A stretch of DNA of 64,000 bases, from assembly GCF_020217465.1 (NCBI RefSeq), contig NZ_CP084115.1, positions 2,480,001-2,544,000 on the forward strand. Reading direction: 5' to 3'. The notes under the pieces are model-generated. The model was not told the origin of the DNA, did not search any database, and saw nothing but the letters and a program-made list of their open reading frames with translations. This DNA is from Cobetia amphilecti. GTDB lineage: Bacteria > Pseudomonadota > Gammaproteobacteria > Pseudomonadales > Halomonadaceae. A program made the position numbers and the translations under genes. Positions 11,050 through 47,204 of this stretch are shown here, one piece after another; the stretch's first letter is position 1, and each line of letters starts with the position of its first letter.

Positions 11050-12453
11050 TTAGTGTACAGAAATATCAGGATCATTCATCTTCTCCAAGACCGATTTCTT
11101 GTGTACGATACGTCGTTTAATTTTCTTAATCCCTTCCCCCCCTGGGCGAGCTTCCAAGGCCTTATCAAGCAGTAACAAGGCATCATCCAAGAGCCCATGT
11201 TGCTCAAAATAGACACCCAGTTCTCGAAGGCGATCAGCTTCCTTCCTCTTGCCACTCGCAATGATACCGCGGGTGCGAGCACTCAATCCTTGAAGTGGTA
11301 CTGGCTCCTCAAAGGGGATACCAAGTAAGTCAAGCAATTTCAGAAAAGTATAGCCTTGGTTGCCCTCTTTATATTGTGTCCAAGCTGCTTTTCTGATGGC
11401 ATCAAGCTCCTTAGAATATTGATCCTCAAGATAGGCCAGTGGCCGATAGGGGTTGGTAACATCCGCCGTAAAACTATCTTTCGCAGGTTGAGGTGGGAAC
11501 AATATTTTTCGATCAAGAGACGGGAATCTCTTCAAAGCCGGCTCCATCGCCGAGAGAAATTTCGCATTAATGTCCTTGTAGAGTACAGCCGGAATATCCT
11601 GACTCCCAATAGAGCCTTCATCAGGATGGAGATCTGAATACTCTTGCAAAGCCCAGTCAATCTGCTGACCAACTGCAGAGGGGAGCCTAGCAAGCACTGT
11701 ATTAAAGATACGCTTAAGCTCTAGCGCAGACCGCACATAGCTGCGATTAGTAATCTTTCTTTCAGGAAGCAGTGCAAATATCTCTGATGTCGGAACTCCC
11801 AGCTCTTCCAGAAAGGTTGCTTCAATCTGTCGTGTATTTTCTGCAGGCTTCTGGTAGGTAAGAAAATGGCAGTTATCATCTCCAAAAGCATCAGCCCACT
11901 GAAGCAGTGGACCACCCGATAGATTACTGGGATTGCTGTTCTGAAGAACGGGGACAAGTTGACTGTAGAAACTTCGTGAGTATCCATGACGCTTGATCCC
12001 TTGGTTGTAGTTCCCCAAAAGATAGTCTACAGGTGCACGAACAAAGGCAATTACGCGAATAGCGTCAGGAGACAACCGCAATCTTTCGTGAAGTAATCTC
12101 GCCACTGACTCTAATTGATAAAAAAAAGACTCTGATGATAATACAAGTATTAGACCTTTCTTTCGAGCATGGTTAAGCCATTTCTGAAGCTGCATCTCCG
12201 CCCTGTCTATATCACCTTCGCTTAATGCCACAGATAATTGGCTATGCCCGCCCGATATCCCATTCTTATCTATGTTATGTTCAGGGTAATAATAACCAAT
12301 TCTTTCAATAGATTTTCGAGAACTTAGCATATAACGCTGTATTGCTGAAGAACCTGCCTTAGGTGATCCAATATGAATAACCAAATCCAAAGGTGGAGTA
12401 TTATGTGCAGATAATCTTGAAGATAAGTTGAATACCTTACGTATAATTTTCAT
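11050..12453 (-). CDS. Sulfotransferase-like protein with C-terminal TPR-type tail
   Basis: A 467-residue protein. The N-terminus has VIHIGSPKAGSSAIQ (about 25-39), the 5'-phosphosulfate-binding loop of PAPS-dependent sulfotransferases; the 3'-phosphate region is probably VIAFVRAPVDYLLGNYNQ (about 130-150). The last ~60 residues (LRELGVYFEQHGLLDDALLL through RPGG) form a TPR-like helical hairpin also present in the sulfotransferase-like gene at 14575. It lies in an AT-rich stretch. It probably transfers sulfate to a sugar of the capsule; the acceptor is unknown. Confidence 0.65.
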   Translation of the reverse strand: MKIIRKVFNLSSRLSAHNTPPLDLVIHIGSPKAGSSAIQRYMLSSRKSIERIGYYYPEHNIDKNGISGGHSQLSVALSEGDIDRAEMQLQKWLNHARKKGLILVLSSESFFYQLESVARLLHERLRLSPDAIRVIAFVRAPVDYLLGNYNQGIKRHGYSRSFYSQLVPVLQNSNPSNLSGGPLLQWADAFGDDNCHFLTYQKPAENTRQIEATFLEELGVPTSEIFALLPERKITNRSYVRSALELKRIFNTVLARLPSAVGQQIDWALQEYSDLHPDEGSIGSQDIPAVLYKDINAKFLSAMEPALKRFPSLDRKILFPPQPAKDSFTADVTNPYRPLAYLEDQYSKELDAIRKAAWTQYKEGNQGYTFLKLLDLLGIPFEEPVPLQGLSARTRGIIASGKRKEADRLRELGVYFEQHGLLDDALLLLDKALEARPGGEGIKKIKRRIVHKKSVLEKMNDPDISVH

Positions 12454-12482
12454 GTAGCATTAAAATCTCGACATTGCTTAAA

Positions 12483-13466
12483 TCAGCCTAAGGTATCAGC
12501 AAATAGATTCTTTGAAACCTTTTTCACAGTAACATCATCTGGATTCGACCTGATATATACTTCAACCTCGGAAGCTTTAGCATACACATCACCTCTTGCC
12601 GCATCAATCATTTTAGAAACCTCACAAAAATCAATAAACATATTCTGCGACTTCAAATAGCAATCATGACGATCATAATTAAAATTAGTTTTTATTTCAT
12701 TTTCAACCATGCCTGAAGAAAAATATCCAGGTCTATTATTTTTCAAAGATCCTTTCTGTCCAGCTCTACCTTTCAAAAGAGCCGCCATATACTCTATTCT
12801 GGACCTATACATTCGATGAATTACAAACGAGGGTTTCGAATAGCATAAGTCTTTATTTAAAGCCTGCGGTTTATCTTCGGACATAACCAAGGGGTTATGA
12901 TCTGCATCATAGCATGAGGCGTTTTTGAATTCAGGGAAGTGAACCCTCAGGCTTTTTATTGCTAAATCAGTACGGAACAATGTTTTGCATAACCTATGAA
13001 TATAATATTCACCATCCGATGCAATAGAGCTGAACTCTTGAGGTCGTGCAAGCTCACAATGCCAATTAAAAGCAATAGCATCAGCATCAATGTGTATATG
13101 ATCCTTAATTTTTGAACCGAAATCCGCAGGCACCCAAAATTCATCTACATCTAAATACATGAGGAAGTCTACATTATTCATTCTACAATAATTTAGATCT
13201 TTTGCATAACAGATTTTCTGTAGCCCTTTATTTATATTATCTGGACATAGATCTATCCAGTCTGCAATTTCATAAGTAACACCTTTGTACTTCTGAGCGA
13301 TCTTAGAAAGTATATCTACTGTTTGATCTTCACTTCTATTAACATAAATATGTATTTGGTCAAAACCGAAATAAAGATGGTGATGGACCCACTGAGCAAT
13401 ATAAGGAGCTTCATCTTTGGCTATAGCTGCAATCCTTACGTTCTTGCGCTTATCAATATTACGCAT
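12483..13466 (-). CDS. Glycosyltransferase family 2-like (DVDEFW type), copy 1
   Basis: A 327-residue protein of the Glyco_tranf_2_4/GT92-like type: it starts with RIAAIAKDEAPYIAQWVHHH, has the FGFDQIHIYVNRSEDQT segment and the metal-binding DVDEFW motif (about 110), and ends with a basic HRMYRS region. The start at 13466 has AAAGG upstream; a GTG further out would add nine residues. It is strongly AT-rich compared with the rfb and kps genes. It shares the whole layout with the next gene, so the pair arose by duplication. Confidence 0.75.
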   Translation of the reverse strand: MRNIDKRKNVRIAAIAKDEAPYIAQWVHHHLYFGFDQIHIYVNRSEDQTVDILSKIAQKYKGVTYEIADWIDLCPDNINKGLQKICYAKDLNYCRMNNVDFLMYLDVDEFWVPADFGSKIKDHIHIDADAIAFNWHCELARPQEFSSIASDGEYYIHRLCKTLFRTDLAIKSLRVHFPEFKNASCYDADHNPLVMSEDKPQALNKDLCYSKPSFVIHRMYRSRIEYMAALLKGRAGQKGSLKNNRPGYFSSGMVENEIKTNFNYDRHDCYLKSQNMFIDFCEVSKMIDAARGDVYAKASEVEVYIRSNPDDVTVKKVSKNLFADTLG

Positions 13467-13551
13467 AAACCTTTTACCCTTATTTGTAAACACCGATACT
13501 ATTAAGCCCTTAATAAAATATCAAGGGCTCAAAACAAATTGTTAAAACCTC

Positions 13552-14556
13552 TTATAATATGGTAAGGCCATTAGCAACTTTAATTGCTTCAGAATCACCT
13601 TTAGCTACAAGTTTTTTTAGTATCTCTATTGACTTTATTGACTTTAGCTTAATAGATTCTATATCGTCATTAATATATGAACCGACATCTAAATCAGTAA
13701 TAGCGGTATAACGAGAGCTCATATAATCGAGATAATTATTTTTTGGCCAATCAAAATATCTATTAATTTTATCCCAGTTGTGTGGCTTGTATCCTGGGCG
13801 ATTCGTTTTAATTGACAGGGGTTGAGATGGTCTACCTCTCAGCAATAAAGCGGTATATTCAATTTCCGATCTAAACATACGATGAACAATATATGCCTTC
13901 TTTGGTCTTCGCATTGCATTAGTAGTGTGTTGATTTATAGTCTTATCAAATTCAATACGCTTACCATTCGCATCAATCGGAGCACAGTTATTATCATATA
14001 TAGGTACATGAACTCTGACATTCTTAATATCAGCATAATTGATAGGAGTAATAGTTTTCACCAACGGAGGAATAAAATATCCATGTTGATTTTCCAAAAA
14101 ACTGAAAGGTACACTCTTACCAACTTCACAGTGCCATTGGAAACAGATTGGTTGACAACTATCAGAACTAGTCTTCTTTAAAAAATCTTTTATAGATGTT
14201 TTAAAGTCATTGGGAATCCAATATTCATCCACATCTATGCACAACCACCAGTCAATATGTTTCTCCAAGGAAAGGCTAAGGTCTTTTGCATATGCGATGT
14301 TTTGTAATTTACTGGAGACTTGTACATCACAGTAATCTAACCAATCTATAGTTTCATAAGTAACCTGTGGGTATTTTTCGCTTACTTTCTGTAGGATAGA
14401 TAAGGAGTTATCTGTAGTACGATTCACATAGATATGTATTTGATCAAACCCAAAGTATAAATGATGATAAATCCAGTCTACAAGATAGGGCCCTTCATCT
14501 TTAGCAATAGCACAAATACGAACAACTGCACTGTTAGTAAAGTCGTTATCTTTCAT
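13552..14556 (-). CDS. Glycosyltransferase family 2-like (DVDEYW type), copy 2
   Basis: A 334-residue paralogue of the neighbouring gene: RICAIAKDEGPYLVDWIYHH at the N-terminus, FGFDQIHIYVNRTTDNS, DVDEYW as metal-binding motif, and YIVHRMFRSEIEYTALLLRG near the C-terminus. It is AT-rich like its neighbours. Probable function is transfer of one sugar during capsule repeat assembly; no donor can be named. Confidence 0.75.
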   Translation of the reverse strand: MKDNDFTNSAVVRICAIAKDEGPYLVDWIYHHLYFGFDQIHIYVNRTTDNSLSILQKVSEKYPQVTYETIDWLDYCDVQVSSKLQNIAYAKDLSLSLEKHIDWWLCIDVDEYWIPNDFKTSIKDFLKKTSSDSCQPICFQWHCEVGKSVPFSFLENQHGYFIPPLVKTITPINYADIKNVRVHVPIYDNNCAPIDANGKRIEFDKTINQHTTNAMRRPKKAYIVHRMFRSEIEYTALLLRGRPSQPLSIKTNRPGYKPHNWDKINRYFDWPKNNYLDYMSSRYTAITDLDVGSYINDDIESIKLKSIKSIEILKKLVAKGDSEAIKVANGLTIL

Positions 14557-14574: not shown

Positions 14575-15321
14575 CTATTTCTCGACTTTACGTTTGATTT
14601 CCGAATATTTATCGTTGATAGTTTTACCTCCAGGCCGTATCTTTTTTGCTTCTATAATAAGCTCCAATGCGACCGCAGGCCTCTTATCTTCAAAGTAAAT
14701 TGCCAAGTCTCGTAAAATATCTGCATTTTTTTCCGGATTTTTTATAACTTTTTTATTTTTAGTTTTATGTCTATGCTTCCATTTACTTGCATCAGCTTCG
14801 ATGCCGTTATTATTTAGAAAGCTAATTAAGGTGTCATTATTCATCGTATCAATATTAAAATACAGGAATCGAGGATTACCAATAAACAGCTTTAATACAT
14901 TAGAAGTATGTTTTTCATAATCCATGCCCCACCTGCTTATAACAGCATCTATATCATGACCGCCTTCATCTGAGACCCGTTTTAAGTATGAGCCTTCGTC
15001 ATGATTAATTCTACTTCTAAGCCATGCGTTTTTATTTCGAGTATTAAATATAAACAATGCTTTGGGATATTGCTCTATCAGTTGTTCTATCAACTCCATA
15101 GCTACATACCGAAATACACCATTACCTTCGTAATGCTCCATATCTGTGAATACATCGTAATGTTCCAACCCACTTAACAATGGTTGACCAAGATTATGAT
15201 TGTCAAAGATTCTCTTTGATACTTCACCATGTTCCCAGTGCGCTGCATTAAAGCCATTCTCTTTGAAGAACCAGTATAAAGACCCTGTACCAGCTTTGTT
15301 GAAACCTATTTGAAAAATCAT
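14575..15321 (-). CDS. Sulfotransferase-family protein with C-terminal TPR-type tail
   Basis: A 248-residue protein starting at the ATG at 15321 (a GTG three codons upstream is also open). The N-terminus MIFQIGFNKAGTGSLYWFF carries a KAGTGS phosphosulfate-binding loop. ALFIFNTRNKNAWLRSRINH fits the 3'-phosphate-binding strand-helix. The last ~50 residues (ILRDLAIYFEDKRPAVALEL, then RPGG) match the tail of the gene at 11050. It is AT-rich. It probably modifies the surface polysaccharide with sulfate. Confidence 0.7.
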   Translation of the reverse strand: MIFQIGFNKAGTGSLYWFFKENGFNAAHWEHGEVSKRIFDNHNLGQPLLSGLEHYDVFTDMEHYEGNGVFRYVAMELIEQLIEQYPKALFIFNTRNKNAWLRSRINHDEGSYLKRVSDEGGHDIDAVISRWGMDYEKHTSNVLKLFIGNPRFLYFNIDTMNNDTLISFLNNNGIEADASKWKHRHKTKNKKVIKNPEKNADILRDLAIYFEDKRPAVALELIIEAKKIRPGGKTINDKYSEIKRKVEK

Positions 15322-15330
15322 AAACAGCAC

Positions 15331-15529: not shown

Positions 15530-16465
15530 TTATCCTAGGTCCTCCATCGAGAGTTGGTCTACTGGCAACACCTTGATCGGCTGATAGCCAGACTTGTTGA
15601 GGCTCTCGGCCGGTAGACCGAACCACTCGATCAGCTTCTGGTTACCTTGCTTGAAGTGGGCATCAAAGGCCTGCTGCTCCGCGACCGTGAACAGCACATG
15701 CTTATCCTGCTCGGCATCCAGTGCCTTCGACAGGGAGATGATCTTGTCCCGGCGGCGCGCGAATTCCGCATTGCCCATCTGGCCACGGCCGAATCGCTGC
15801 ACCAGCGGCAGACAACGTGTCGGGAGCGAGGGGTTGATGATGGCAGTCTCATCGGCCTGGTTGGCACCTGCACGATACGCGATGCCGAAAGATGCCAGGA
15901 AGTCCTGTACTACCTTGCGACTATAGGGAATGACGGACAGGTTCTCTCCGCCGACGTGCCTTTCCCACTGACGAACATGATTCAGATAGTTCAGCCAGCT
16001 CACATTGCGCATGGCGAGGGTGAACAGAGACGCCTCGTAGCGGATATTGGGGTCTTTCACCAGCTGATTGAACAGCGACAGCAGCAACTCGGACTGCGGG
16101 CGCACCGTGAAGATGACCTTGACCGTCTCGAAGTACTCAGCGACGAATTCCTTGAAGCGCGGATTGTTGAAATACATCGGCGACAGCTCGGAAGACAGCA
16201 GCACGCTGGGGGCCGGGCTGGCCTGCATCTCGACTCGGAGCTTCTCGAGGGCATCGGCGGGTGACATGTCACTCTGATAGGCGCCACTGCCTTTGAATGA
16301 TAAGGCGAACGGATGGTGGGAATGGTCAGGCCATTGCAGCGATTGCGGGTAGAGAATCCCCTTGGCCAGGAAATCCTCGTGCTGCGCCTGAATCTGCGAT
16401 TGAACCGCAGAAGTCCCCGTCTTGGACCAGCCGACATGAAGGTACAGTGTGTCTTTTTTCATCAT
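15530..16465 (-). CDS. Sulfotransferase-like protein
   Basis: A 311-residue protein. LYLHVGWSKTGTSAVQSQI (about 7-25) is the phosphosulfate-binding loop; VKVIFTVRPQSELLLSLFNQ (about 115-135) has the Arg and later Ser of the 3'-phosphate site. There is no signal peptide or membrane segment. Its ATG overlaps the upstream stop codon as ATGA, so it is translationally coupled to the RgpF/HAD gene. Unlike the other sulfotransferases here it is GC-rich. Confidence 0.7.
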   Translation of the reverse strand: MMKKDTLYLHVGWSKTGTSAVQSQIQAQHEDFLAKGILYPQSLQWPDHSHHPFALSFKGSGAYQSDMSPADALEKLRVEMQASPAPSVLLSSELSPMYFNNPRFKEFVAEYFETVKVIFTVRPQSELLLSLFNQLVKDPNIRYEASLFTLAMRNVSWLNYLNHVRQWERHVGGENLSVIPYSRKVVQDFLASFGIAYRAGANQADETAIINPSLPTRCLPLVQRFGRGQMGNAEFARRRDKIISLSKALDAEQDKHVLFTVAEQQAFDAHFKQGNQKLIEWFGLPAESLNKSGYQPIKVLPVDQLSMEDLG

Positions 16466-18387
16466 TCACCAATAAACGGGTTGCGGCCGATCTGGCTTAC
16501 CAGAGCGCCCCATTTCAGAATCTGGACTTCATCAAGTGCCTCATCGCCCCTCAGGACGTCCGGCATTCCGAGGGCGCGCCACTTGTCCATTGGATGAAGA
16601 ATATGGAAGGTCGCCAGGCCCATGTCGCCTGGGCGCTGTGCATCGGCCACGACATTGTCACCGATATGCAGATGTCGACGGCCTTCCTCGCGCGCGAGGT
16701 CTTCCTTGACCATCGCCCACATGATGCCGCTATCCTTGCGCTTGCCTTCCTCACTGGAGACCATCAGGCGATAGGCTGCGGCAATACCTGCCTTGCGTAA
16801 CATCAGACCGACCTGGTCACGCGTGTAGTAGGTGTCGGAGATGACCCACAGTACATGTCCTGCAGAGCCGAGATGATTGAACAGCTCCACCATCTCGTCC
16901 TTGGGCTGGATCATCGCGAGATCCAATTCGAACTCACGCTTCATCCATCCCTGCGCGACATCCTTGCTGACCTTGTACACATCCGCCAATTCGTCATAGA
17001 TGGCGTCGATGCGGATATCGCCCTGGAAGCTGGCACGCTTGCGAAGCGTGAATTCAGCCTCGTTGCGCGTCTTCACGAAATCATGAGCTGAGGAGGCGAT
17101 GCCCTGCTCCACCAGCCACTTGCCCAACTTCAGCTTGGCATAATCCGGTACGGTGAATTCGCGACGAACCAGCGTATCGAAGACATCGAAGCTGATGATC
17201 TGATGCGCCTGGATGGCAGGCATGTGCTGTTCGATGGAACCGTGGTAGCTCGCGGTGATGTAGCTCTGGTCAACCGTAAAATCGCCACCGGACGGATAAT
17301 AGAAGAACTGACGGTAGCCCAGGTTTTCCGCCTGAGCGCCGAGAATACGTTCAAGCGCATGCAGCTTGGAGCCATCGTTGGGCAGGGGTTCATCGGGGAA
17401 GTCTTCGTATTTCCAGCCCTTGCCGATGATGCCCTCAAGCGCCTGTGGGCGCGCCCAGAACATGCCGCCTGCGGGATAGCTCAGGAAGTCGCTGACATGA
17501 TCGATCTCCAGCGCCTGCTGCCACTCGCGCATGAAGCCCTTGTTCATGGTCTGGTGATTCACCCAGCTGGGCATCATCCAGAATGTCGTCGGGTAATAGA
17601 TACCGAGCGTCTCGTCAGCAGCGAAGGCATTGAGCGCGCGCTTGACGACGGACTTGTCACTCAGCAGAAATTCAGTGAGGTAATCGGCCCATTGGGTCTG
17701 TTCCCGTCCTGAATACAGTGACTTCTTGGAGTGCAGGTGGCAGAACAGGTCATACTGCGCAAGCACATCGCCATACTCGACCAGCAGCGGACCGAAGTTG
17801 CGCCCACGATTTGGCACGTGACGAATCTCGACATGTCTGACGCAGCCATGCTTCTCGAACGTCTTGCGTGCCAGGGATTCATTCACCCCCTTGGCAAGCG
17901 TCAGCAGGACATCCACCTGGATTGGCATGTCATCCAGCGCATGGGCGAAACGCTCCAGAAAATCCTCGTAGAAGACATGCAGACAGACCGCCATCTTCAA
18001 TTGGCTGGCTGCCTCGGTGAGCGTGGTATCCAGTGGCATACGCGCTTGAGGAACCCAGCGCGGGGTCAGGGGCACATGCTGGCGCCCTTCCTGCTTGCCA
18101 TTTTTCAGATAATGGAACAGCGGGCTCTGCTGGTCGTAAAACACGTCCATGTACATACGATGGTAGCTTTCACCATCGAATGCCGGTGAAGGGTGAATCG
18201 GCGCGAAGCGTGACTTGTGGAGATAATCCTTGAAGGCATGTGCCGGTGAGGAGAATTTCTGACCGTAGCGCTGCTGATACCAGCTGGCATCGAACAGCCC
18301 CAGGGTTTCGGCTTGCTCGAATTCCCGCCGCTGCGCCTTGGTAAGAGATGCGGAGTTTCGTTTGGTAAAGACATTGAACGGTTTCAT
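16462..18387 (-). CDS. Rhamnan-synthesis F (RgpF)-like glycosyltransferase fused to a HAD hydrolase domain
   Basis: A 641-residue fusion. Residues ~25-110 contain the FDASWYQQRYGQ and FDGESYHRMYMD type repeats that often precede these enzymes; ~130-385 is an RgpF-like domain (PF05045), with HVPNRGRNFGPLLVEYGD and FCHLHSKKS; ~395-600 is a HAD phosphatase-like domain with nucleophile motif ISFDVFDTLVRR, then WVISDTYY and HIGDNVVAD. RgpF proteins act in rhamnose-rich polysaccharide assembly, consistent with the rfb genes immediately upstream. The protein is coupled to the downstream sulfotransferase. The COG5610 family normally continues after the HAD domain into a region that here is encoded by the separate upstream gene. 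Confidence 0.8.
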   Translation of the reverse strand: MKPFNVFTKRNSASLTKAQRREFEQAETLGLFDASWYQQRYGQKFSSPAHAFKDYLHKSRFAPIHPSPAFDGESYHRMYMDVFYDQQSPLFHYLKNGKQEGRQHVPLTPRWVPQARMPLDTTLTEAASQLKMAVCLHVFYEDFLERFAHALDDMPIQVDVLLTLAKGVNESLARKTFEKHGCVRHVEIRHVPNRGRNFGPLLVEYGDVLAQYDLFCHLHSKKSLYSGREQTQWADYLTEFLLSDKSVVKRALNAFAADETLGIYYPTTFWMMPSWVNHQTMNKGFMREWQQALEIDHVSDFLSYPAGGMFWARPQALEGIIGKGWKYEDFPDEPLPNDGSKLHALERILGAQAENLGYRQFFYYPSGGDFTVDQSYITASYHGSIEQHMPAIQAHQIISFDVFDTLVRREFTVPDYAKLKLGKWLVEQGIASSAHDFVKTRNEAEFTLRKRASFQGDIRIDAIYDELADVYKVSKDVAQGWMKREFELDLAMIQPKDEMVELFNHLGSAGHVLWVISDTYYTRDQVGLMLRKAGIAAAYRLMVSSEEGKRKDSGIMWAMVKEDLAREEGRRHLHIGDNVVADAQRPGDMGLATFHILHPMDKWRALGMPDVLRGDEALDEVQILKWGALVSQIGRNPFIGE

Positions 18388-19506: not shown

Positions 19507-20055
19507 TCATTCAAAGACAGCGACCGACTCGAAAGATTCACCGGCTTCATCCTTGCCCGAGAGCAGCGGCGCTTCGCCATTCACCAGCGGCCACTCGACA
19601 CCCACACTGGGGTCATTCCATTTCAGGGAGTATTCATCACCCGGCGCATAATAATCCGTGCACTTGTACTGGAATTCCGCTGATTCGCTGATGACATAGA
19701 AGCCATGAGCGAATCCCGGCGGTACCCACAGCATCTGCTGATTGTCTTCACTCAGAAAGGCGCCAACCCACTGACCGAACGTCGGGCTGCTCTTGCGCAT
19801 GTCGACGGCTACATCAAATACTTCGCCCTGAGTGACACGTACCAGCTTGCCCTGCGGCTGATTCAGCTGGTAGTGCAAGCCACGCAGGATGCCCTGACGG
19901 GATTTGCTGTGGTTGTCCTGCACGAAGGTGTAATCACCGCAGTGCTCGACGAATTCGCTCTGGCGAAAGGTCTCCATGAAGAAGCCGCGCTCGTCTCCGA
20001 ATTTTTGCGGGGTCAGCAGCACGACATCCGGGATGGCGAGTTTTTCGAAATTCAT
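19507..20055 (-). CDS. rfbC: dTDP-4-dehydrorhamnose 3,5-epimerase
   Basis: A 182-residue cupin-fold enzyme, the normal length. It converts dTDP-4-keto-6-deoxy-glucose to dTDP-4-keto-L-rhamnose. Visible are the KFGDERGFFMETF start, the GILRGLHYQ segment with catalytic His61, VAVDMR.SSPTFGQW, and the C-terminal YKCTDYYAPGDEYSLKWNDP. It is separated from rfbA by 260 bases containing a terminator-like hairpin, so it may be transcribed partly on its own. Confidence 0.95.
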   Translation of the reverse strand: MNFEKLAIPDVVLLTPQKFGDERGFFMETFRQSEFVEHCGDYTFVQDNHSKSRQGILRGLHYQLNQPQGKLVRVTQGEVFDVAVDMRKSSPTFGQWVGAFLSEDNQQMLWVPPGFAHGFYVISESAEFQYKCTDYYAPGDEYSLKWNDPSVGVEWPLVNGEAPLLSGKDEAGESFESVAVFE

Positions 20056-20181
20056 GCGGGAATTGCTCCTTGTAGGGGACAGATATCACTTCAACGATCA
20101 CAAGACTCGATGCCCTGCCGACTCGGGGCACGGCAAGACTCAACCTTGATAACGCACAGGCGTGGCGGGCCATCATGAAAA

Positions 20182-25801: not shown

Positions 25802-25802
25802 A

Positions 25803-39106: not shown

Positions 39107-40048
39107 CTAGAAATAACCTTCGCGCTTCTTCTTCTCCATCGAGCCTGCCTGGTCGTGATCGATGGCACGCCCGGAGCGCTCGCTGGTACGCGTCAGCAGC
39201 ATTTCCTGGATGATTTCCGGCAGGGTCGCGGCGGTGGATTCCACAGCACCGGTCAGCGGGTAGCAGCCCAGGGTGCGGAAACGCACGGACTTCATCTCCG
39301 GCACTTCGCCTTCCTTGAGCGGCAGACGATCGTCGTCGACCATGATGTCGAGGCCGTCACGCTTCACCACCGGACGCACGGCGGAGTAATAGAGCGGCAC
39401 GATCTTGATGGATTCGAGATAGATGTACTGCCAGATGTCCAGCTCGGTCCAGTTGGAGAGCGGGAAGACGCGGATGGACTCACCCTTGTTGATCTTGGAG
39501 TTGTAGATGTTCCACAGCTCCGGACGCTGATTCTTGGGGTCCCAGCGATGGTACTGGTCACGGAAGGAGTAGACGCGCTCCTTGGCGCGTGAAGCTTCCT
39601 CGTCACGACGTGCGCCACCGAAGGCGGCATCGAAGCCGTGCTTGTCGAGTGCCTGCTTGAGACCAGCGGTCTTCATGATGTCGGTGTACTTGGCGCTGCC
39701 GTGATCGAACGGGTTGATGCCCGCCTCGACGCCTTCCTGGTTGATGTGCTCGATCAACTCCATGCCGACTTCCGCGGCCATCTCGTCGCGGAACTTGATC
39801 ATTTCCTGGAATTTCCAGGTGGTGTTGACATGCATCAGCGGGAACGGCGGGACGCCCGGCGCAAAGGCCTTGCGCGCCAGGTGCAGCATGACGGCGGAAT
39901 CCTTGCCGATGGAATACAGCATGACCGGATTGGCAAATTCCGCTGCCACTTCACGGATGATGTGAATGGATTCGGCCTCAAGCTGCTTGAGGTGGGTCTG
40001 ACGTTCCGGTGTGATGCCGAGCTTGTCGGCCGTAGATGATGCAGTCAT
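39107..40048 (-). CDS. cysD: Sulfate adenylyltransferase subunit 2
   Basis: A 313-residue enzyme of the PAPS reductase/ATP-PPase fold. The pyrophosphatase loop [35 protein letters not shown], and [17 protein letters not shown] (the C-terminal pattern [15 protein letters not shown]) are characteristic of CysD. It adenylates sulfate together with the GTP-driven CysN part of CysNC. Length is normal. Confidence 0.96.
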
Positions 40049-40208: not shown

Positions 40209-41057
40209 TCATGCCCAGGGAGCGGCCGGCGTGGCACAGACGATGAAATAGGGGTTGAGCACGCTGTCATGCTGGTTGTAACGCAGTGCCTGACGGGTCT
40301 CGGCATTCAGCACCTGGCCACCCGCGGCTTCGACCACCGCATGCGCGGCACCGGTATCCCATTCACAGGTCGGGCCGAGGCGCGGGTAGAGGTCTGCCGC
40401 CCCTTCCGCCACCAGGCACAGCTTCAGTGAACTGCCCATGGCGACGATATCGCAGGCAGCGAAGTCGGCGACGAACGCCTTGAATTCTTCGGTCTGGTGA
40501 GAGCGACTCCCGACGATGCGCCAGCTGTCGGTGCTGCTCGGCACGTCACTGACGGCGATGGCCTGACGCCCACCCTCGCCAACCTGCTTCTCGGCGATGG
40601 CGGCCTGGCCTTCGCCCTGCTGGGCACCGACGTAAAGCGTCTCGATGGCCGGCGCATAGACGACGCCCATGGTCGGCACGCCCTGCTCGATCAGCGCGAT
40701 GTTGACGGTGAATTCGCCATTGCGCTTGATGAATTCCTTGGTGCCATCCAGCGGATCGACCAGCCAGTAACGCGTCCAGTCACTGCGCACGTCCCAGCTG
40801 ATGTCCGCGTCTTCCTCGGATAGGATCGGTGTGGCGCCGAATTCGGCGTCCATGGCCTTCAGACCGTCGACGATGACGGCGTGCGCTGCACGGTCTGCCG
40901 TGGTCAGCGGGGAATCATCCGACTTCATGTCGACCGTGAAGTCTCCGCTCTCGTAGATCTCCATGATGGCAGCGCCCGCCTTGCGAGCAATGGCCTCCAA
41001 CGCATTCAACATGGCGCGTGTCGTGCTGTCGGTCGTGCTCACTGTCGTATCCGTCAT
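40209..41057 (-). CDS. cysQ: 3'(2'),5'-bisphosphate nucleotidase
   Basis: A 282-residue inositol-monophosphatase-fold enzyme. Metal-binding motifs are visible as PILSEEDADI and YWLVDPLDGTKEFI, and GPTCEWDTGAAHAVVEAAGG near the C-terminus. It hydrolyses PAP, the by-product of sulfotransferases, to AMP. The start at 41057 (MTDTTVST) is chosen; an upstream extension would add an unlikely hydrophobic leader. It sits between the SLC13 permease and cysD, fitting a sulfation-support module. Confidence 0.93.
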   Translation of the reverse strand: MTDTTVSTTDSTTRAMLNALEAIARKAGAAIMEIYESGDFTVDMKSDDSPLTTADRAAHAVIVDGLKAMDAEFGATPILSEEDADISWDVRSDWTRYWLVDPLDGTKEFIKRNGEFTVNIALIEQGVPTMGVVYAPAIETLYVGAQQGEGQAAIAEKQVGEGGRQAIAVSDVPSSTDSWRIVGSRSHQTEEFKAFVADFAACDIVAMGSSLKLCLVAEGAADLYPRLGPTCEWDTGAAHAVVEAAGGQVLNAETRQALRYNQHDSVLNPYFIVCATPAAPWA

Positions 41058-41163
41058 GTGCCTTCCTGTCAGTGTGAATTCGCCAGCCAGGCTGGCGATG
41101 TAAAGGGTAACGCTCGCCAGCGGCTGCCAGACGAAGCAGAGCATGGTTTAGCCCGTCAATGAC

Positions 41164-42942
41164 TCAGCCCGAGAAGGGCCAGATCAGCGGAATCAGAGCG
41201 ACCGAGGTGACACCGACGATGATGCTCATCGGCAAACCGACCTTCATGTAATCGGACACCTTGTAGCCCCCCGGGCCCATCACCATCAGGTTGGTCTGAT
41301 AGCCCAGCGGGGTAAGGAAACTGGCCGAGGCCGCGAACATGATGGCAATCGCATAGGGCATCAATGAGACCCCCAGCTGCTCGCTGACCGCCATAGCGAT
41401 CGGAAACATCAACACGGCGGCGGCGTTGTTGGTGATGATCTCGGTAAATAGCGTCGTGGTGAGATAGACGAGTGCCAGCATCAACAGCGGCGAGCCGCCG
41501 CCCAGCTGCATGAGCTGGTCCGCCACCATCTGGGCCGCATCGCTGTCGGTCATCGCCTGCCCCAGCCCCAGGGCAGCGGCAATGACGACCAGCACGCTGC
41601 CATCGATGCTGGCACGCGCCTGCGAGGCCGGGAGGCAACCGGTGAAGACCATCAGAATGGCGGCCGCCACGGCCGCCTCGACCAGTTCGGCCATGCCCGC
41701 CAGGTGCGTGATGATCATCAGGCTAATGATGGCGAGTGCGATGGGCGCCTTGGTGAGGTTGGGCATGCCATTGCCATCCAGCGTGCTGACCAGCAGGAAT
41801 TCGCGGTTATAGCGATGCAGGCGCGTGAAATCGGCAGCGGCTTCCAGCAACAGGGTGTCACCGGGGCGCAGCACGATGTCACCGACCTTGCTGTTGATGC
41901 GCTCACCATCACGTGACACGGCGAGAATCACGGATTGGTAGCGGGTACGAAAGCGAGCTTCACGCACGTTCATGCCGACGACGGGGGAGCTAGGGGCGAT
42001 GACGGCCTCGACCATGCGGCGTTGGTGATGATCCAGGTCCAGGCCTGCGGCGTCGCTTTCCAGCCCGCGGAAAACACGCACTTCATGCGCCGTGTCCGCG
42101 ACACCGACAAAGATGAGGCGATCACCGGACTGGAGGATGGTGTCAGGGCCGACCATGGACAGCAGCTTGCCGGAGCGCTCTATCTCGGCCAGATAGCCGA
42201 ATTGAAGACTGCGCAGCCCCGCCTCTTCGATGCTCTTGTCGTGCAGCGGCCCCTTATCGGCCACTCGCATGGCCACCGAATACTCGCGCCCATTGCCAAG
42301 CTGTTCGACCAGCCCCTTGCGCTGGGGGAGGAAACGCCAGCCGATCAGCACCATCCACAGGGTGCCGATGATCAGCACAGGCACGCCTAGCGCAGAGATA
42401 TCAAAGATGCCGAGCCCGGGCAGGTTGGCCTGGGACTGCAGCAGGCCGTCGACGACCAGATTGGTACTGGTGCCGATCAGGGTGCAGGTACCGCCAAGGA
42501 TGGCGGCATAGCTCATAGGCATCAGCAGACGCGAAGGCGAGATTTTCATGCGCGCGCACCAGCCCTGAACCAGGCCAATGAAGAGTGCGACGACGGGGGT
42601 GTTGTTCAAAAAGGCGCTAAGCAGCGAGGTGATCGGCATCAGGCGTGCCAATGCTGAAGAAGGAGAGCTGGGGCGCCCGAGCAGACGTTCGAGCATCCAG
42701 CGCAGCGCCCCGGTTTCCTGAACGCCGGCGGCGACCACGAAAAGTGCGCCGATGGTCATGATGCCCGGATTGGCGAATCCGGCCAGGAAGGTCGCCGGAG
42801 AAATGACGCCCAGCAGAATCAACGACACGGCAGCGGCCATCATCAGCCACTCCGCCGGCCAACGATTCCAGACAAGCCCTGCCAACACTCCTACCGTCAC
42901 CACCAGGGTGACAAAAGCATCCATGTGCTGCGCGATTTCCAT
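41164..42942 (-). CDS. SLC13 (DASS)-family permease with two TrkA-C domains, probable sulfate transporter
   Basis: A 592-residue membrane protein. Transmembrane segments occupy about 1-190 and 395-592; between them two RCK-C-like domains (about 205-290 and 295-380; for example SGDRLIFVGVADTAHEVRVF and RPGDTLLLEAAADFTRLHRY). SLDPs of this layout (SLC13 with TrkA-C) include sulfate transporters in marine and halophilic bacteria, and the next three genes activate sulfate. NNTPVVALFIGLVQGW and NNAAAVLMFPIAM are the paired re-entrant SNT-like motifs. The ion it carries is inferred from context. Confidence 0.85.
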   Translation of the reverse strand: MEIAQHMDAFVTLVVTVGVLAGLVWNRWPAEWLMMAAAVSLILLGVISPATFLAGFANPGIMTIGALFVVAAGVQETGALRWMLERLLGRPSSPSSALARLMPITSLLSAFLNNTPVVALFIGLVQGWCARMKISPSRLLMPMSYAAILGGTCTLIGTSTNLVVDGLLQSQANLPGLGIFDISALGVPVLIIGTLWMVLIGWRFLPQRKGLVEQLGNGREYSVAMRVADKGPLHDKSIEEAGLRSLQFGYLAEIERSGKLLSMVGPDTILQSGDRLIFVGVADTAHEVRVFRGLESDAAGLDLDHHQRRMVEAVIAPSSPVVGMNVREARFRTRYQSVILAVSRDGERINSKVGDIVLRPGDTLLLEAAADFTRLHRYNREFLLVSTLDGNGMPNLTKAPIALAIISLMIITHLAGMAELVEAAVAAAILMVFTGCLPASQARASIDGSVLVVIAAALGLGQAMTDSDAAQMVADQLMQLGGGSPLLMLALVYLTTTLFTEIITNNAAAVLMFPIAMAVSEQLGVSLMPYAIAIMFAASASFLTPLGYQTNLMVMGPGGYKVSDYMKVGLPMSIIVGVTSVALIPLIWPFSG

Positions 42943-43331
42943 CTACTAGCGTTCCCTTGGCGTCCTGCCGCTTCTTCTGGTCAAGCCCTGCGCTTCACGT
43001 TCACATGAAGCTCAAGCATTAATGAAAATGCATCGCAGAGCGTGGCACTTTAGCAGTAAAGCTATTACTGCTAAAGCATGCAGTGAAAAAGCTGACAAAC
43101 AAAATAAAGCACAGGTTAATCATTTGCCTGCTACCAATATCGCGAGCAAAGACTTGATTGAATTCGTTCGTCACTTTGCGTACTTTCCCTATTTGCGGAC
43201 TCTGAGTCAACGGTCTCACACGACACTCTCACCAGGCGTGCGGAGCATCACGAGTAAGCAGTCACTTTTCTTATCTGAAACGGACACCCTGCATGCTGAA
43301 GGCGGCAATGAACCAAGGATGGGGGCTTATC
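42943..43331. promoter_or_regulatory. Divergent intergenic region between the SLC13 and kpsC genes
   Basis: About 390 bases that must hold the promoters of both divergent units. It contains a perfect 12-bp inverted repeat with five-base spacer (43048-43076, see separate entry), and a weaker one, GCTTCA-8-TGAAGC (42992-43011). A 122-codon open frame over 43022-43390 runs here but overlaps the kpsC start and has no family look, so it was not called. Confidence 0.5.
43048..43076. repeat. Perfect 12-bp inverted repeat upstream of kpsC
   Basis: Arms CTTTAGCAGTAA and TTACTGCTAAAG, separated by AGCTA. It is symmetrical and lies between two divergent promoters, so it could be an operator for a dimeric regulator; as RNA it would form a 12-bp hairpin without a uridine tail. 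Confidence 0.75.
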
Positions 43332-45707
43332 ATGCGTGCTCTGCCCTGCGCCTCTCACGCTCGGCACGGATCAGCAGATGTCACGAATGACGCGACCTCT
43401 GGGGCATCGCTCTGTTTTTCTTCAGGTATTTATCGCCAACCACTTCTTGCCTGCTTCATTCCCGAGTTGCTGCCACTGACAAGAGGGCGTACACCCCTTT
43501 CATGTCAGAACAATGACAACTCGCTCACCTTCAAGAATTTATCTTTCGCTGCCAGGCGACGTGCCCCGACAGGTACACTGAGCAAAAAAAATGTAGGAAA
43601 AGAACAACAACCGGCAGCGAGCGAGGCTGATTCTTTGCCAGAACTCGGGGCATCGAAAGGGATAAATACTGCGCCAGAATTCACGGGCCAGAAATCCTCG
43701 ACAAACATCATCCGTGTCGTCGGTTGGGGACATAAACCCACGGCGAAACGTGCGCGCCAATATGCGCTTGAACATGGATTTCCCTACGTTGCATTGGAGG
43801 ATGGTTTCCTGCGTTCTCTGACCCTGGCAAGCGCCGGTTACCCTGGCATGGCGATGGTGGTCGATCATCAGGGCATCTATTACGATGCGCGCCAACCGAG
43901 TGATCTCGAGCAACTGATCAAGGAAGCGCCGACGCGTCAGGGTGAGGCGTTGTTGGCGCGCGCGCGCGCGGCTCTCGAAAGCCTGCGCATGCATCGCTTG
44001 AGCAAGTACAACCATGCACCAGAGCGCAAGCTACCAGCCCGAAAGCCTGGCATGCAGCGACTTCTCATCGTGGATCAGACCGCCGAGGATGCGTCTGTCA
44101 TGGGCGGCATGGCCAACCGGGAGACTTTCCTTGCCATGCTGAGGGAGGCCTGTGCCATCGAGGGAGCCGAGGTGTGGGTCAAGGTGCATCCGGATGTGAT
44201 AGCCGGCAAGAAACGCGGCTACCTGCTGGAAGAGGCACGCAAGCTTGGCTGCACGCTGCTGAGTGACGACATCAACCCCTGGTGCCTGTTTGAACAGGTC
44301 GATGGCGTCCACGTCGTGACCAGCCAGCTTGGGTTCGAGGCCTTGATAGCAGGCCTGCCGGTGACCTGCCACGGTATGCCGTTCTATGCCGGCTGGGGCC
44401 TGACGGATGATCGCCAGCAATGTCCGCGCCGAGGCGAGTCACGCACGCTTGAGCAGGTGTTTGCCGCGGCCTATCTCGAATACAGCCGTTATGCCAATCC
44501 CTATACCCAGCAGGCCGCGGCGCTCGAAGAGATCATTCAACTACTTGCAGACCAGAAGCGAATGGCTACCAGGCTGGCAGGACACTGGATAGCGCCGGGG
44601 TACTCGCGCTGGAAGCGTAATTTCCTGCCCGGCTTCCTGGGGCCCTTGGCGCACTGCGACTTCGTCAAAAGCGATGCCATCGCACTGCAAAAGCTGCAAA
44701 AGACAGCTGGTGTCACCATCGCGCATGATCCGCAAGCGATGTCGCAGCGCAAACAACAGGCACCGCACCCTACCCGGGTGCTGAGCTGGGCGAGCCGAAC
44801 CACAGCAGAGCTGGAAGCCTCTGTCATTGCACAAGGGGGCGCTCTGTGGCGAATCGAGGACGGTTTCTTGCGCTCAGTCGGCCTGGGGGTGGATCTCACG
44901 CGGCCACTTTCGCTGATCCTCGACCCGCTCGGCATGCATTTTGACGCCAGTCGCTCAAGCGCACTGGAGCAGTGGTTGATGCATCATGATTTCACCGATG
45001 CCGAGTTAGGCCGCGCACGCCAATTACGCGAGCGCCTGATCACGTTGGGACTGAGCAAGTACAATTCGGAAGGTGATGAATTGCCGGACCTTCGTGCGAT
45101 GGCCAAGGGCCGTGACGTGATATTGGTCGTCGGCCAGGTGGAGTCAGATGCCTCGATACGCCATGCGTGCCCCGGGATACGCACCAATCAGGCTTTGCTT
45201 GAGGCGGCGCGGAAATTGCACCCTGAAAGCTACGTGATCTATAAACCGCATCCCGACGTTGTCACAGGCGGGCGTAGTGGCGAGGTGGCGACTGAAGGCG
45301 GGACGTGCGATCTCGAATTGACCACCGGCAATATCAGTCGGTTATTTGAGCAGGTGGATCATGTACACACGCTCTGCTCGCTCGCCGGCTTTGAAGCCCT
45401 GATACGAGGTGTGCCCGTCACGACCCATGGCCTGCCCTTCTATGCTGGCTGGGGGCTGACTCATGACCTTGTCGAGTGCCCAAGACGAACTCGGCACTTG
45501 AGTGTGGATGCCCTGGTGGCTGGCGCTCTGATCGAGTATCCCGTGTATGTGGCCCCTGAGCACGGTCACTTATGCAATGCCGAGACAGTCGTCACGATCC
45601 TGGAACAACAACGTGACAAGCTTCGCAGAGGCACCTCGAAGCCTGCATTGCCTTGGAAAACCCGTCTTTATCGAGGCTATCGCGCCTTACTCATCGGGAA
45701 GCATTGA
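43332..45707 (+). CDS. kpsC: Capsule polysaccharide Kdo-linker glycosyltransferase (dual beta-Kdo transferase)
   Basis: A 791-residue protein that is internally duplicated: the first half shows VALEDGFLRSLTLASAGYPG and GLPVTCHGMPFYAGWGLT, the second IEDGFLRSVGLG and GVPVTTHGLPFYAGWGLT. KpsC adds alternating beta-2,4 and beta-2,7 Kdo residues to the glycerolipid in group 2 capsules. The start at 43332 is preceded by AAGGATGGGGG; earlier ATGs at 43293 and 43308 extend the N-terminus without similarity to the family. The next gene kpsS follows after three bases. The homologue in Burkholderia is wcbA. Confidence 0.9.
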   Translation: MRALPCASHARHGSADVTNDATSGASLCFSSGIYRQPLLACFIPELLPLTRGRTPLSCQNNDNSLTFKNLSFAARRRAPTGTLSKKNVGKEQQPAASEADSLPELGASKGINTAPEFTGQKSSTNIIRVVGWGHKPTAKRARQYALEHGFPYVALEDGFLRSLTLASAGYPGMAMVVDHQGIYYDARQPSDLEQLIKEAPTRQGEALLARARAALESLRMHRLSKYNHAPERKLPARKPGMQRLLIVDQTAEDASVMGGMANRETFLAMLREACAIEGAEVWVKVHPDVIAGKKRGYLLEEARKLGCTLLSDDINPWCLFEQVDGVHVVTSQLGFEALIAGLPVTCHGMPFYAGWGLTDDRQQCPRRGESRTLEQVFAAAYLEYSRYANPYTQQAAALEEIIQLLADQKRMATRLAGHWIAPGYSRWKRNFLPGFLGPLAHCDFVKSDAIALQKLQKTAGVTIAHDPQAMSQRKQQAPHPTRVLSWASRTTAELEASVIAQGGALWRIEDGFLRSVGLGVDLTRPLSLILDPLGMHFDASRSSALEQWLMHHDFTDAELGRARQLRERLITLGLSKYNSEGDELPDLRAMAKGRDVILVVGQVESDASIRHACPGIRTNQALLEAARKLHPESYVIYKPHPDVVTGGRSGEVATEGGTCDLELTTGNISRLFEQVDHVHTLCSLAGFEALIRGVPVTTHGLPFYAGWGLTHDLVECPRRTRHLSVDALVAGALIEYPVYVAPEHGHLCNAETVVTILEQQRDKLRRGTSKPALPWKTRLYRGYRALLIGKH

Positions 45708-45710
45708 ATC

Positions 45711-47204
45711 ATGTTACATGGACGTCTGGCATTGCCTTTCACCACTTCAGCTTCCGCCCTCATGCCCGCGGACACTCGCGCGCAAGAGAGCCTTGGGGAA
45801 CAAGGCCTCTCACCGGCAACCTCCGTGGCTAGCGCGGTCGAAAAACTGCGCCAGCTCAAGATGTCGGATGATGCCGTCCTGACACGACCGCCAGTTCAGC
45901 CCGACGTCTCGCGTGGTGCTGAATTGCACACTCCGGGGCATCCACCCTCTGCTCACATTCGACCGGGCGGCGGCCGCCGGCGCGTCTTCATGTTGCTGCA
46001 GGGGGTGTGCTCGCCCTTCTTCCTGCACCTGGCGAAAAAGCTCAAGCAGGATGGCCATGAGGTCATCAAGGTCAACTTCAACAGCGGCGACAGCTTCTAC
46101 TGGCGCCACGACAAGGCGTATGCCTATCGCGGCAAGCTCGAGAACCTCGGTGACTGGATCGCCGAACTCTGGCGCAAGCATCACGTCACGGATCAGGTGC
46201 TGTTCGGCGACCGACGCCCGGTACATCGTGATGCCGTGCTCAAGGCGGAATATCTCGGCATCCGTACCCACGTGTTCGAGGAGGGCTACTTCCGCCCCTA
46301 CTGGGTGACACTGGAGCGCGAAGGCGTCAATGGCCACTCCCTGCTGCCACGCGACCCTGACTGGTTCCGTGAGGCAGGCAGACACCTCGAAGATGCCCCC
46401 ACGCCGCAGCGTTTCAAGGCGCCTTTCAGTGAGCGTGCGCGCCACGACATCACCTATCACCTGGCGGGCGCGGCCAATCCGCTGCTGTTCCCGCGCTACC
46501 GCCCGCACAGCATTCACGCCGTGCAGGAATACGCGGGCTATGCGACACGACTGCCCTTGATGCGCTGGTACAAGCGGCGTGACGCCAAGCGTATCGATCA
46601 GCTGATGGGCAGTGGCGCGCCCTACTACATGCTGCCGCTGCAGCTGAATACCGATGCCCAGATACGCCACCACTCGCGCTTCGCCAACATGCAGGAAGTC
46701 ATCCAGCGAGTGATGAAGAGCTTCGCCCTGAATGCGCCACGCGGTGCCCGCCTGGTGATCAAGAACCACCCCCTCGACATGGGGCTGGTGGATTACCCGG
46801 GACTGATTCGCTCATTGGAGCGCCGCTACGACCTGATCGGGCGTATCGTCTATCTGGAGAGCGGCAATCTGGAGAAGCTGCTGCAGCAGGCCAAGGGCAT
46901 GATCACGGTCAACAGCACGACCGGCAACGTGGCGCTGCAGTATCGCTGCCCGACCTTCTGCATGGGTGACCCGATCTTCAACTTGCCGGGCCTGACCTTC
47001 CAGGGTTCGCTGCATGATTTCTGGACCCAGGGCCAGCGCCCCGACACCACGCTCTTCCGACATTTCCGCAATACGGTGATTCATACCGTGCAGCTCAATG
47101 GCGGCTTCTACTGCAAGCCGGGCATGCAACTGGCCGTGTTGGGCGCCTCCAAGATACTGTGTGCCGAACGCTCGCCGCTGGAGAACATGTTGAGCCGCTG
47201 CTGA
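45711..47204 (+). CDS. kpsS: Capsule polysaccharide initiating Kdo transferase
   Basis: A 497-residue protein. From about residue 88 onward it follows KpsS: VFMLLQGVCSPFFLHLAKKL, the LFGDRRPVHRDAV and FEEGYFRPYWVTLEREGVNG segments, LVIKNHPLDMGLVDYPGLIR and ITVNSTTGNVALQYRCPTF. KpsS places the first Kdo on phosphatidylglycerol. The N-terminal ~85 residues are low complexity and absent from E. coli KpsS. It is only three bases from the kpsC stop. Confidence 0.9.
   Translation: MLHGRLALPFTTSASALMPADTRAQESLGEQGLSPATSVASAVEKLRQLKMSDDAVLTRPPVQPDVSRGAELHTPGHPPSAHIRPGGGRRRVFMLLQGVCSPFFLHLAKKLKQDGHEVIKVNFNSGDSFYWRHDKAYAYRGKLENLGDWIAELWRKHHVTDQVLFGDRRPVHRDAVLKAEYLGIRTHVFEEGYFRPYWVTLEREGVNGHSLLPRDPDWFREAGRHLEDAPTPQRFKAPFSERARHDITYHLAGAANPLLFPRYRPHSIHAVQEYAGYATRLPLMRWYKRRDAKRIDQLMGSGAPYYMLPLQLNTDAQIRHHSRFANMQEVIQRVMKSFALNAPRGARLVIKNHPLDMGLVDYPGLIRSLERRYDLIGRIVYLESGNLEKLLQQAKGMITVNSTTGNVALQYRCPTFCMGDPIFNLPGLTFQGSLHDFWTQGQRPDTTLFRHFRNTVIHTVQLNGGFYCKPGMQLAVLGASKILCAERSPLENMLSRC

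Follow-up and report, generated by a model that had tools for sequence, protein, structure and literature searches.

A group 3-type capsule locus of Cobetia amphilecti with genes for sulfate activation and a predicted sulfated rhamnose/mannose polymer

A capsule locus with genes for sulfate activation

We analyzed a stretch of 64,000 nt from the genome of Cobetia amphilecti (positions 2,480,001-2,544,000 of the single-contig, 4,160,095-base genome), called the window here, in which a polysaccharide locus spans 8.5-58.5 kb. This locus very probably directs the formation of an ATP-binding cassette (ABC) transporter-dependent capsule of the group 3 type, made of a sulfated rhamnose/mannose polymer of the kind known from Cobetia marina KMM 1449. 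On the minus strand the genes are, in reading order, those for an SLC13-type permease, cysQ, cysD, cysNC, a DUF5061 lipoprotein gene, kpsD, kpsM, kpsT, kpsE, and a bifunctional glycosyltransferase, followed by sugar, glycosyltransferase, and sulfotransferase genes down to position 8,567. The plus strand carries kpsC, kpsS, a short-chain dehydrogenase gene, and genes encoding a protein similar to LtaS and a type I polyketide synthase of 2,768 residues (Table 1). An earlier note on this stretch, made from the sequence alone, had placed the sulfate genes next to the export genes on one strand; this is correct for the permease gene, cysQ, cysD, cysNC, and kpsDMTE, with kpsC-kpsS on the opposite strand. 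The cysNC gene overlaps the DUF5061 gene by 4 bases, and there are gaps of 165 bases before cysNC and 160 bases before cysD. A promoter and terminator scan of 30-48 kb gave sites no more numerous than in shuffled sequences.

The gene content suggests a path from sulfate to a sulfated chain. The permease would take up sulfate and CysD with CysNC would convert it to 3'-phosphoadenosine 5'-phosphosulfate (PAPS). Sulfotransferases may then transfer sulfate to sugar hydroxyls in the cytoplasm, with CysQ predicted to clear the by-product 3'-phosphoadenosine 5'-phosphate (PAP), and KpsMTED would export a chain built on a linker made by KpsC and KpsS. The earlier note had proposed that uptake, activation, transfer, PAP removal, and export are encoded together. 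Gene content, gene order, and comparison with other genomes support this, and it has been published for Cobetia (PMC11766843). CysNC, CysD, and CysQ all score above the cut-offs of their NCBIfam models. The permease, named SLC13 in the earlier note, is an SLC13-like protein of the CitMHS/TrkA_C type. Because it scores 115 against a cut-off of 198.6 for the DASS model of NCBIfam, sulfate is only its presumed substrate.

The locus had been described as group 2-type. Group 2 capsule loci consist of kpsFEDUCS and kpsMT regions. The window contains a kpsM/kpsT ABC transporter with kpsD and kpsE, of which kpsE was recognized from weak matches and its place; the order is kpsDMTE, and no kpsF- or kpsU-type match was found among the scanned ORFs (open reading frames) of the locus, the remaining genome not having been searched. 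In PMC11766843, group 3 is defined by contiguous kpsDMTE genes and a separate kpsCS unit that runs the opposite way. Capsules of this group are expected to carry a lipid-borne poly-Kdo linker at their reducing end, and both the KpsC and KpsS families are encoded in the window. Since kpsD-M-T-E and a separate kpsCS pair are what the window holds, the locus is group 3-type rather than group 2.

The closest characterized system is that of KMM 1449, for which Kokoulin et al. 2025 (PMC11766843) determined the capsule by nuclear magnetic resonance as ->4)-a-L-Rhap2S-(1->3)-b-D-Manp6PGro-(1->, bearing out the earlier statement that sulfated surface polysaccharides occur in Cobetia. The same paper reports a contact between mannose H-1 and rhamnose C-3 in the heteronuclear multiple-bond correlation spectrum, though rhamnose appears as 4-linked in the formula. 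It describes a gene cluster with kpsETMD, kpsSC in the opposite direction, cysNC-cysD-cysQ-sulfate permease between these, a wcb operon, rmlBDAC, and a manC fusion. Similar clusters are reported there for other Cobetia and are called group III, and an O-antigen region is also part of the published clusters. The window shares with KMM 1449 the kps operon, the opposite kpsSC, the PAPS genes and permease between them, a wcb-type operon downstream and near the ABC genes (we identified only its LtaS-like and polyketide synthase-like genes), the rml operon beside the manC fusion, a sulfotransferase gene next to rgpF and rml, and an S-adenosylmethionine-dependent methyltransferase at the left boundary. 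The presence of rmlCADB, rgpF, and the manC fusion agrees with the prediction that the sugars include rhamnose and a mannose derivative. The KMM 1449 genome has 4,184,796 bp as compared with 4,160,095 bp here.

The core of this finding is thus already known, because the locus type and the sulfated capsule were published for Cobetia in 2025 (PMC11766843). Bacterial capsules that carry sulfate attract interest as glycosaminoglycan-like polymers, and sulfotransferases that act on the sugar residues of polysaccharides are described as little known (PMC11641403). What we add is that the only detected adenosine 5'-phosphosulfate (APS) kinase of the genome, which carries out the last step of sulfate activation, is encoded inside the capsule locus; a short, testable assignment of a candidate rhamnose sulfotransferase; and evidence from across the Halomonadaceae that the APS kinase gene is accessory in this family and often located beside capsule genes. 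In the open-access library that we searched, we found no paper stating these wider, family-level points.

Five putative sulfotransferases

The earlier note named five proteins with a PAPS-binding loop, and all five, like the other genes named there, correspond to real ORFs at the coordinates given. We searched with a pattern for a loop near the N-terminus that we take to be the 5'-phosphosulfate-binding loop. This pattern, which was written after seeing the five proteins and is tuned on them, matched exactly 11050, 14575, 15530, 24920, and 27737 (each named by its first position) among the 76 window ORFs of at least 150 aa. When the N-terminal 90 residues of the same ORFs were shuffled 300 times, the mean was 0.04 matches and the maximum 1. 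Applied to 118 neighborhoods of APS kinase genes in the family, the pattern matched about 1% of the ORFs (27 of 2716), and these matches include real sulfotransferases.

Two of the five (27737 and 14575) pass a Pfam cut-off for sulfotransferases, and the Pfam scan gave no sulfotransferase match for 11050 and 24920. Leave-one-out profiles recovered 11050 and 24920 (Table 1) as well as 15530, at 5e-24. Together with six homologues from other genomes of the class, these three form one family of nine aligned members (alignment A3, made without homologue loci L185, L187, and L188), in which three members match Sulfotransfer_1 and two match Sulfotransfer_3 (E up to 0.1). The loop lysine, an SxE motif, and an arginine are conserved in all nine. 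A search of the PDB with the nine-member profile gave 26 matches at E up to 1 and all 26 are sulfotransferases, the best at 2.5e-8. With single sequences the PDB search gave no sulfotransferase for 11050 and 24920 and one, at 0.028, for 15530. A profile of the six outside homologues recovered all three window members, at 4e-31, 1e-23, and 2e-17, and no further ORF of 138 below 0.01; only 15530 is fully independent in this test, because the six homologues were found through 11050 and 24920. The earlier description of the five as sulfotransferases is supported by Pfam cut-off for two, and for the other three by the joint and leave-one-out profiles. A homologue of 24920 was matched in one other genome of 369 searched in the class, and a first contig search across genomes with 24920 as the query found nothing.

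The protein 11050 has a C-terminal helical extension (pLDDT, the predicted local distance difference test score, of 71-93 by blocks over residues 401-460; weak TPR matches) that is missing in the six aligned outside homologues. A further sulfotransferase is encoded outside the capsule locus (L001:1315-2169, at approximately 2.849 Mb in the genome), beside two ORFs that appear glycosyltransferase-like from their translations.

To compare Cobetia loci we used stretches from five other genomes (G006, G030, G045, G057, and G068). Three of them, G030, G045, and G068, also contain the block ST15530-RgpF-18400-rmlCADB as well as the pair ST11050-GT8567. In these three and the source genome, 15530 occurs together with RgpF (80-96% identical), and the homologues of 11050 are 61-68% identical. 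The stretches of G006 and G057 yielded no ST15530 and no ST11050, and RgpF had no match in the former and a 32% match in the latter. The other three sulfotransferases (14575, 24920, and 27737) were not found in the stretches of any of the five. These stretches contain other loop-bearing ORFs: four in G030, three in G045, four in G068, one in G006, and none in G057. The guanine plus cytosine (GC) content is 31-36% at 12483-15330 and 24920-28531, 44-45% in 11050 and 28793, and 53-64% in most of the remaining locus. Both low-GC stretches contain glycosyltransferase and sulfotransferase genes. Judged by distribution and GC content, 15530 and 11050 belong to a recurring rhamnose block, and 14575, 24920, and 27737 look like recent arrivals; these three proteins, encoded in the low-GC inserts, probably add further sulfates.

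Our best candidate for the rhamnose sulfotransferase is 15530, judged from its gene context. Sulfation by 15530 of the rhamnose laid down by RgpF would fit the 2-sulfated rhamnose of the published KMM 1449 capsule, and PMC11766843 likewise argues from position in assigning a rhamnose sulfotransferase.

The source of PAPS

Dedicated PAPS synthesis beside a sulfotransferase is known from the rhizobial NodPQ-NodH system, which sulfates a signal oligosaccharide and not a capsule. In Vibrio sp. KMM 8419 (PMC11641403), the capsule locus combines cysC, cysN, and cysD with sulfotransferase genes and an ABC transporter of the kps type, and the rhamnose is sulfated, as we predict here. That locus differs in that its cysC, cysN, and cysD are named as second copies, it is described as having no kpsC, and its kps genes are spread over several regions (PMC11641403).

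In the source genome we found one match to the APS kinase domain (PF01583) at E <= 0.001, and this is the capsule CysNC. There are three PAPS_reduct matches, namely the capsule CysD, a second CysD, and one CysH. The second cysD is located elsewhere in the genome and is followed by a gene for a 483-residue CysN without a kinase domain. The earlier claim that the locus has its own sulfate supply therefore stands for APS kinase, but not for CysD and CysN, of which a second, kinase-less pair exists. We considered whether a dedicated pathway would show itself by a second copy of every cys gene and rejected this, since cysD and cysN have second copies and no second APS kinase was found. As the only detected APS kinase is encoded in the capsule locus, PAPS in this organism would mainly be a capsule precursor. 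A term search of PMC11766843 returned no cysH and nothing on cys gene copy number.

The two cysD copies (39107-40048 and L007:4544-5557) differ at 25 of 906 bases, all of them third codon positions; identity is only 78% in the cysN parts next to them. When six Cobetia genomes are compared, cysD copies from one locus do not group apart from those of the other, with 13-69 third-position differences (300 codons) within a genome and 13-83 between genomes, which suggests repeated gene conversion of cysD. This comparison used pairwise differences rather than a tree and left out 6 of 18 sequences (those of three non-Cobetia genomes).

Whether PAPS is also needed for cysteine depends on CysH. Its translation contains no Fe-S-type cysteine pair and aligns best with E. 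coli-type PAPS reductases; its score is below every NCBIfam cut-off. The cysH gene (L008:6234-6884, minus strand) adjoins an ORF of LysR-type appearance that we read as a putative cysB. We surveyed 151 genomes of the family and set a line of at least 150 bits for a strong APS kinase match. Such a match occurs in 91 of the 151 and a CysH of the source type in 130. By the Pfam cut-off the APS kinase tally is 105 of 151, the extra coming from 15 genomes with partial matches of 20-25 bits in other frames (14 of them over the cut-off). Fifty of the 130 genomes with CysH have no strong APS kinase match (35 have none at all and 15 have only partial matches of 20-25 bits). Fourteen of these 50 were checked (11 with no match and three with a partial match). 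Each of them encodes CysD and CysH and gives a strong match to the sulfite/nitrite reductase family; in 12 of the 14 the PAPS_reduct matches are exactly CysD and CysH. PAPS is probably not needed for cysteine, because 50 of 130 CysH-bearing genomes lack a strong APS kinase match. The simplest reading of these sequence data is that the CysH of this family reduces APS, in which case PAPS would be needed only for sulfation.

The cys-kps module in the Halomonadaceae

The earlier note had suggested searching other genomes for adjacency of the cys and kps genes. We found that 33 of 67 kpsE homologues (one of the 67 is a broken copy) are within 10 kb of an APS kinase gene, in 29 of the 151 genomes and in five genera. 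Among the named kpsD loci analyzed (the best 80 of 144 matches), only 15 contain CysNC, always upstream of DUF5061-kpsD and on the same strand. We also examined the 118 APS-kinase neighborhoods, a set that leaves out the source genome's own match, the fragmentary ones of G043 and G121, and any match scoring below 26 bits. A KpsD homologue is present in 33 of the 118, a DUF5061 homologue in 33, and a homologue of the permease (34-99% identical) in 50.

All 15 CysNC-bearing loci are Halomonadaceae by title. They come from Cobetia crustatorum, Salinicola salarius (two strains), S. socius, S. halimionae, S. aestuarinus, S. tamaricis, S. halophyticus, S. lusitanus, Salinicola sp. EAC73, Halomonas nitroreducens, H. 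almeriensis, H. eurihalina, H. elongata 153B, and H. litopenaei. Loci titled outside this family (e.g., Zobellella, Oceanimonas, Marinobacterium) had no CysNC in the sequence examined, some of these loci being incomplete. In PMC6268429 the exopolysaccharide of H. almeriensis M8 is reported to contain 1.4% sulphate, and the one from H. eurihalina H2-7 is described as sulphated too. The eurihalina locus compared here is from strain MS1 rather than H2-7, and PMC6268429, so far as its text was available, does not tie either polymer to kps genes.

Across the 151 genomes, here including the source genome's own APS kinase match, sulfotransferases of the PF13469 family co-occur with APS kinase (58 genomes with both, 6 with the sulfotransferase only, 33 with the kinase only, and 54 with neither; Fisher p 1.4e-11), and kpsE does so too, but less strongly (42, 10, 49, and 50; p 2e-4). 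The tests ignore shared descent. PF13469 is also insensitive, having missed G030, where the loop pattern gives four candidates, and two of its 64 genomes are below the cut-off. These co-occurrence tests suggest that PAPS synthesis goes with sulfotransferases in general and that kps capsules are one use among others.

We propose, with even confidence for and against, that PAPS in the Halomonadaceae is no intermediate of cysteine synthesis but a dedicated precursor of sulfated surface glycans. CysH, despite its lack of an Fe-S-type cysteine pair, would reduce APS directly, and APS kinase would travel in an optional cassette of cysD-cysNC, to which cysQ-SLC13 may be added and whose place is often just upstream of DUF5061-kpsDMTE. 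Cobetia would keep the cassette and swap the sugar and sulfotransferase block beyond kpsE, so that exchange of this block could switch capsule sulfation.

Weighing the evidence

Several observations weigh against a sulfated capsule of the KMM 1449 kind. The capsule chemistry is that of KMM 1449, and the source strain is known here from its genes alone. It has five sulfotransferases, whereas the published repeat of KMM 1449 contains a single sulfate. We found no pyruvyltransferase (PF04230) among the scanned window ORFs, and PMC11766843 lists one for region 1 of KMM 1449; because of this the exact structure may differ from that of KMM 1449. Structure models of 24920 and 11050, built from an alignment that contained just the five sulfotransferases of the window, are of low confidence (mean pLDDT 36.1 and 51.8), and a fold search with the 11050 model gave no match at E <= 0.001. 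In G057 the cys-kps module is present, yet neither pattern nor profile found a sulfotransferase in 152 ORFs (116 kb, six stretches), and the whole genome has no PF13469 match, other sulfotransferase families not having been searched there. Module adjacency alone is thus no proof of a sulfated capsule. Beyond kpsE, G057 has a pyruvyltransferase and three families fitting synthesis of 3-deoxy-D-manno-oct-2-ulosonic acid (Kdo) (L064:14475-19801, L276:118-3263). Of the named kpsD loci (the best 80 of 144), only 15 show CysNC alongside. The exopolysaccharides of Halomonas stenophila strains B100 and N12 are called sulphated (PMC6268429), and in H. stenophila CECT 7744 (L230) there is no CysNC near kpsD in the stretch examined. 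Lastly, in the 151 genomes the presence of PF13469 shows no association with that of kpsE (25, 39, 27, and 60; p 0.39).

Some of these points favor other explanations. The cysD-cysNC-cysQ-SLC13 genes could serve housekeeping sulfate assimilation for cysteine and merely lie beside capsule genes. The resemblance of CysH to E. coli-type reductases, which need PAPS, and the absence of an APS kinase match other than the capsule CysNC fit this idea. It is made unlikely by the second cysD-cysN pair, by the 50 CysH-bearing genomes without a strong APS kinase match (with CysD, CysH, and a sulfite/nitrite-family reductase kept in every one of the 14 checked), and by the location of the module beside kps genes in five genera. 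The module might instead mainly supply another sulfated glycan, such as an O-antigen or lipid-linked glycan. Because at least one sulfotransferase is encoded outside the locus, PAPS may serve another glycan too, and both the O-antigen region of the published Cobetia clusters (PMC11766843) and the missing association between sulfotransferases and kpsE point the same way. We consider it very improbable that this is the main role, given that the module continues into kpsDMTE on the same strand and overlaps the DUF5061 gene by 4 bp, that the five sulfotransferases sit among rhamnose and mannose genes, and that the published Cobetia capsule is itself sulfated (PMC11766843).

It is also rather improbable, slightly more so than the housekeeping role, that some of the five, above all 24920, are other P-loop proteins. 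The lack of Pfam sulfotransferase matches for 24920 and 11050 and the poor models would agree with this, as would the presence of guanylate kinases near the top of the fold matches. Among the best 50 of 906 fold matches for 11050, sulfotransferases occupy only ranks 23 and 31, with nucleotide kinases and TPR proteins above them, and we did not use this search as evidence. By contrast, the leave-one-out profiles recover all three weak members at 4e-20 or better (from homologues themselves found via 24920 and 11050), the PDB matches of the joint profile are all sulfotransferases, and the three conserved elements are present in every family member. In essence the earlier reading of the locus is supported, apart from its group 2 label.

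Other features of the locus

Table 1. Features of the polysaccharide locus in window coordinates, with the evidence for each
Feature	Position	Strand	Evidence
Glycosyltransferase family 2 protein, 788 aa	8567..10933	-	PF00535 73.5 bits
Putative sulfotransferase 11050 with TPR-like C-terminus	11050..12453	-	Loop; leave-one-out profile 2e-33; TPR_16 weak
Two low-GC family-2-type glycosyltransferases	12483..14556	-	PF13704
Low-GC (35%) sulfotransferase 14575	14575..15330	-	Sulfotransfer_4 31.9 bits, cut-off 22.8
Putative sulfotransferase 15530, overlaps rgpF by 4 bp	15530..16465	-	Loop LHVGWSKTGTS; Sulfotransfer_1 15.9 bits against 22, sub-threshold; profile
rgpF-type rhamnosyltransferase	16462..18387	-	PF05045 166 bits
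rmlC, rmlA, rmlD, rmlB, dTDP-L-rhamnose supply	19507..23291	-	Pfam scan
manC fusion, GDP-mannose supply	23487..24923	-	PF00483 and PF01050
Low-GC (32%) putative sulfotransferase 24920, near-orphan	24920..25801	-	Loop; leave-one-out profile 4e-20
Low-GC (32%) sulfotransferase 27737	27737..28531	-	Sulfotransfer_3 66 bits, cut-off 27
Bifunctional glycosyltransferase (family 2 and group 1)	28793..31657	-	PF00535 and PF13692
kpsE, inner-membrane chain-length/export protein	31683..32768	-	Wzz and GNVR sub-threshold; named from position and conservation with kpsDMT
kpsT, ABC ATPase	32901..33878	-	PF00005 68.7 bits
kpsM, ABC-2 permease	33806..34672	-	PF01061 41.5 bits
kpsD, outer-membrane export protein	34675..36450	-	Poly_export and SLBB
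DUF5061 (17 kDa common-antigen type) outer-membrane protein gene	36531..37025	-	PF16587 37.3 bits
cysNC, ATP sulfurylase large subunit fused to APS kinase	37022..38941	-	NF004035 993.8 bits, cut-off 715; kinase P-loop GLSGAGKS
cysD, ATP sulfurylase small subunit	39107..40048	-	NF009214 528.8 bits, cut-off 413; PP-loop SIGKDS
cysQ, PAP phosphatase	40209..41144	-	TIGR01331 297.7 bits, cut-off 228.8; DPLDGT motif
SLC13/DASS-type permease with TrkA_C domains, presumed sulfate uptake	41164..42942	-	Pfam CitMHS 288 bits and TrkA_C; beside cysQ-cysD-cysNC
kpsC, Kdo-linker synthase	43293..45707	+	PF05159 283.6 bits, two stretches
kpsS, Kdo-linker synthase	45711..47204	+	PF05159 268.2 bits
LtaS/WcbQ-like protein, putative glycerol-phosphate transferase	48584..50335	+	PF00884 111.6 bits; NCBIfam LtaS 2e-6, far under cut-off
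Type I polyketide synthase-like protein	50215..58521	+	Ketosynthase, acyltransferase, dehydratase, zinc-dehydrogenase, KR, and carrier domains

The Pfam "Sulfatase" match of the LtaS-like protein led us to consider a capsule-desulfating enzyme. This was rejected, as the weak LtaS match and the role assigned to WcbQ in PMC11766843, that of the glycerol-phosphate transferase, fit better, and from its sequence the protein is probably not a sulfatase. The polyketide synthase-like gene that follows probably belongs to the lipid-carrier (wcb) operon, and its product presumably makes an unusual capsule lipid.

Between cysNC and kpsD lies the DUF5061 gene. Homologues of it are found in 68 of the 80 named kpsD loci (the best 80 of 144) in addition to the APS-kinase neighborhoods described above. 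Because homologues recur in both kinds of locus, the DUF5061 protein may be an unrecognized component of capsule export.

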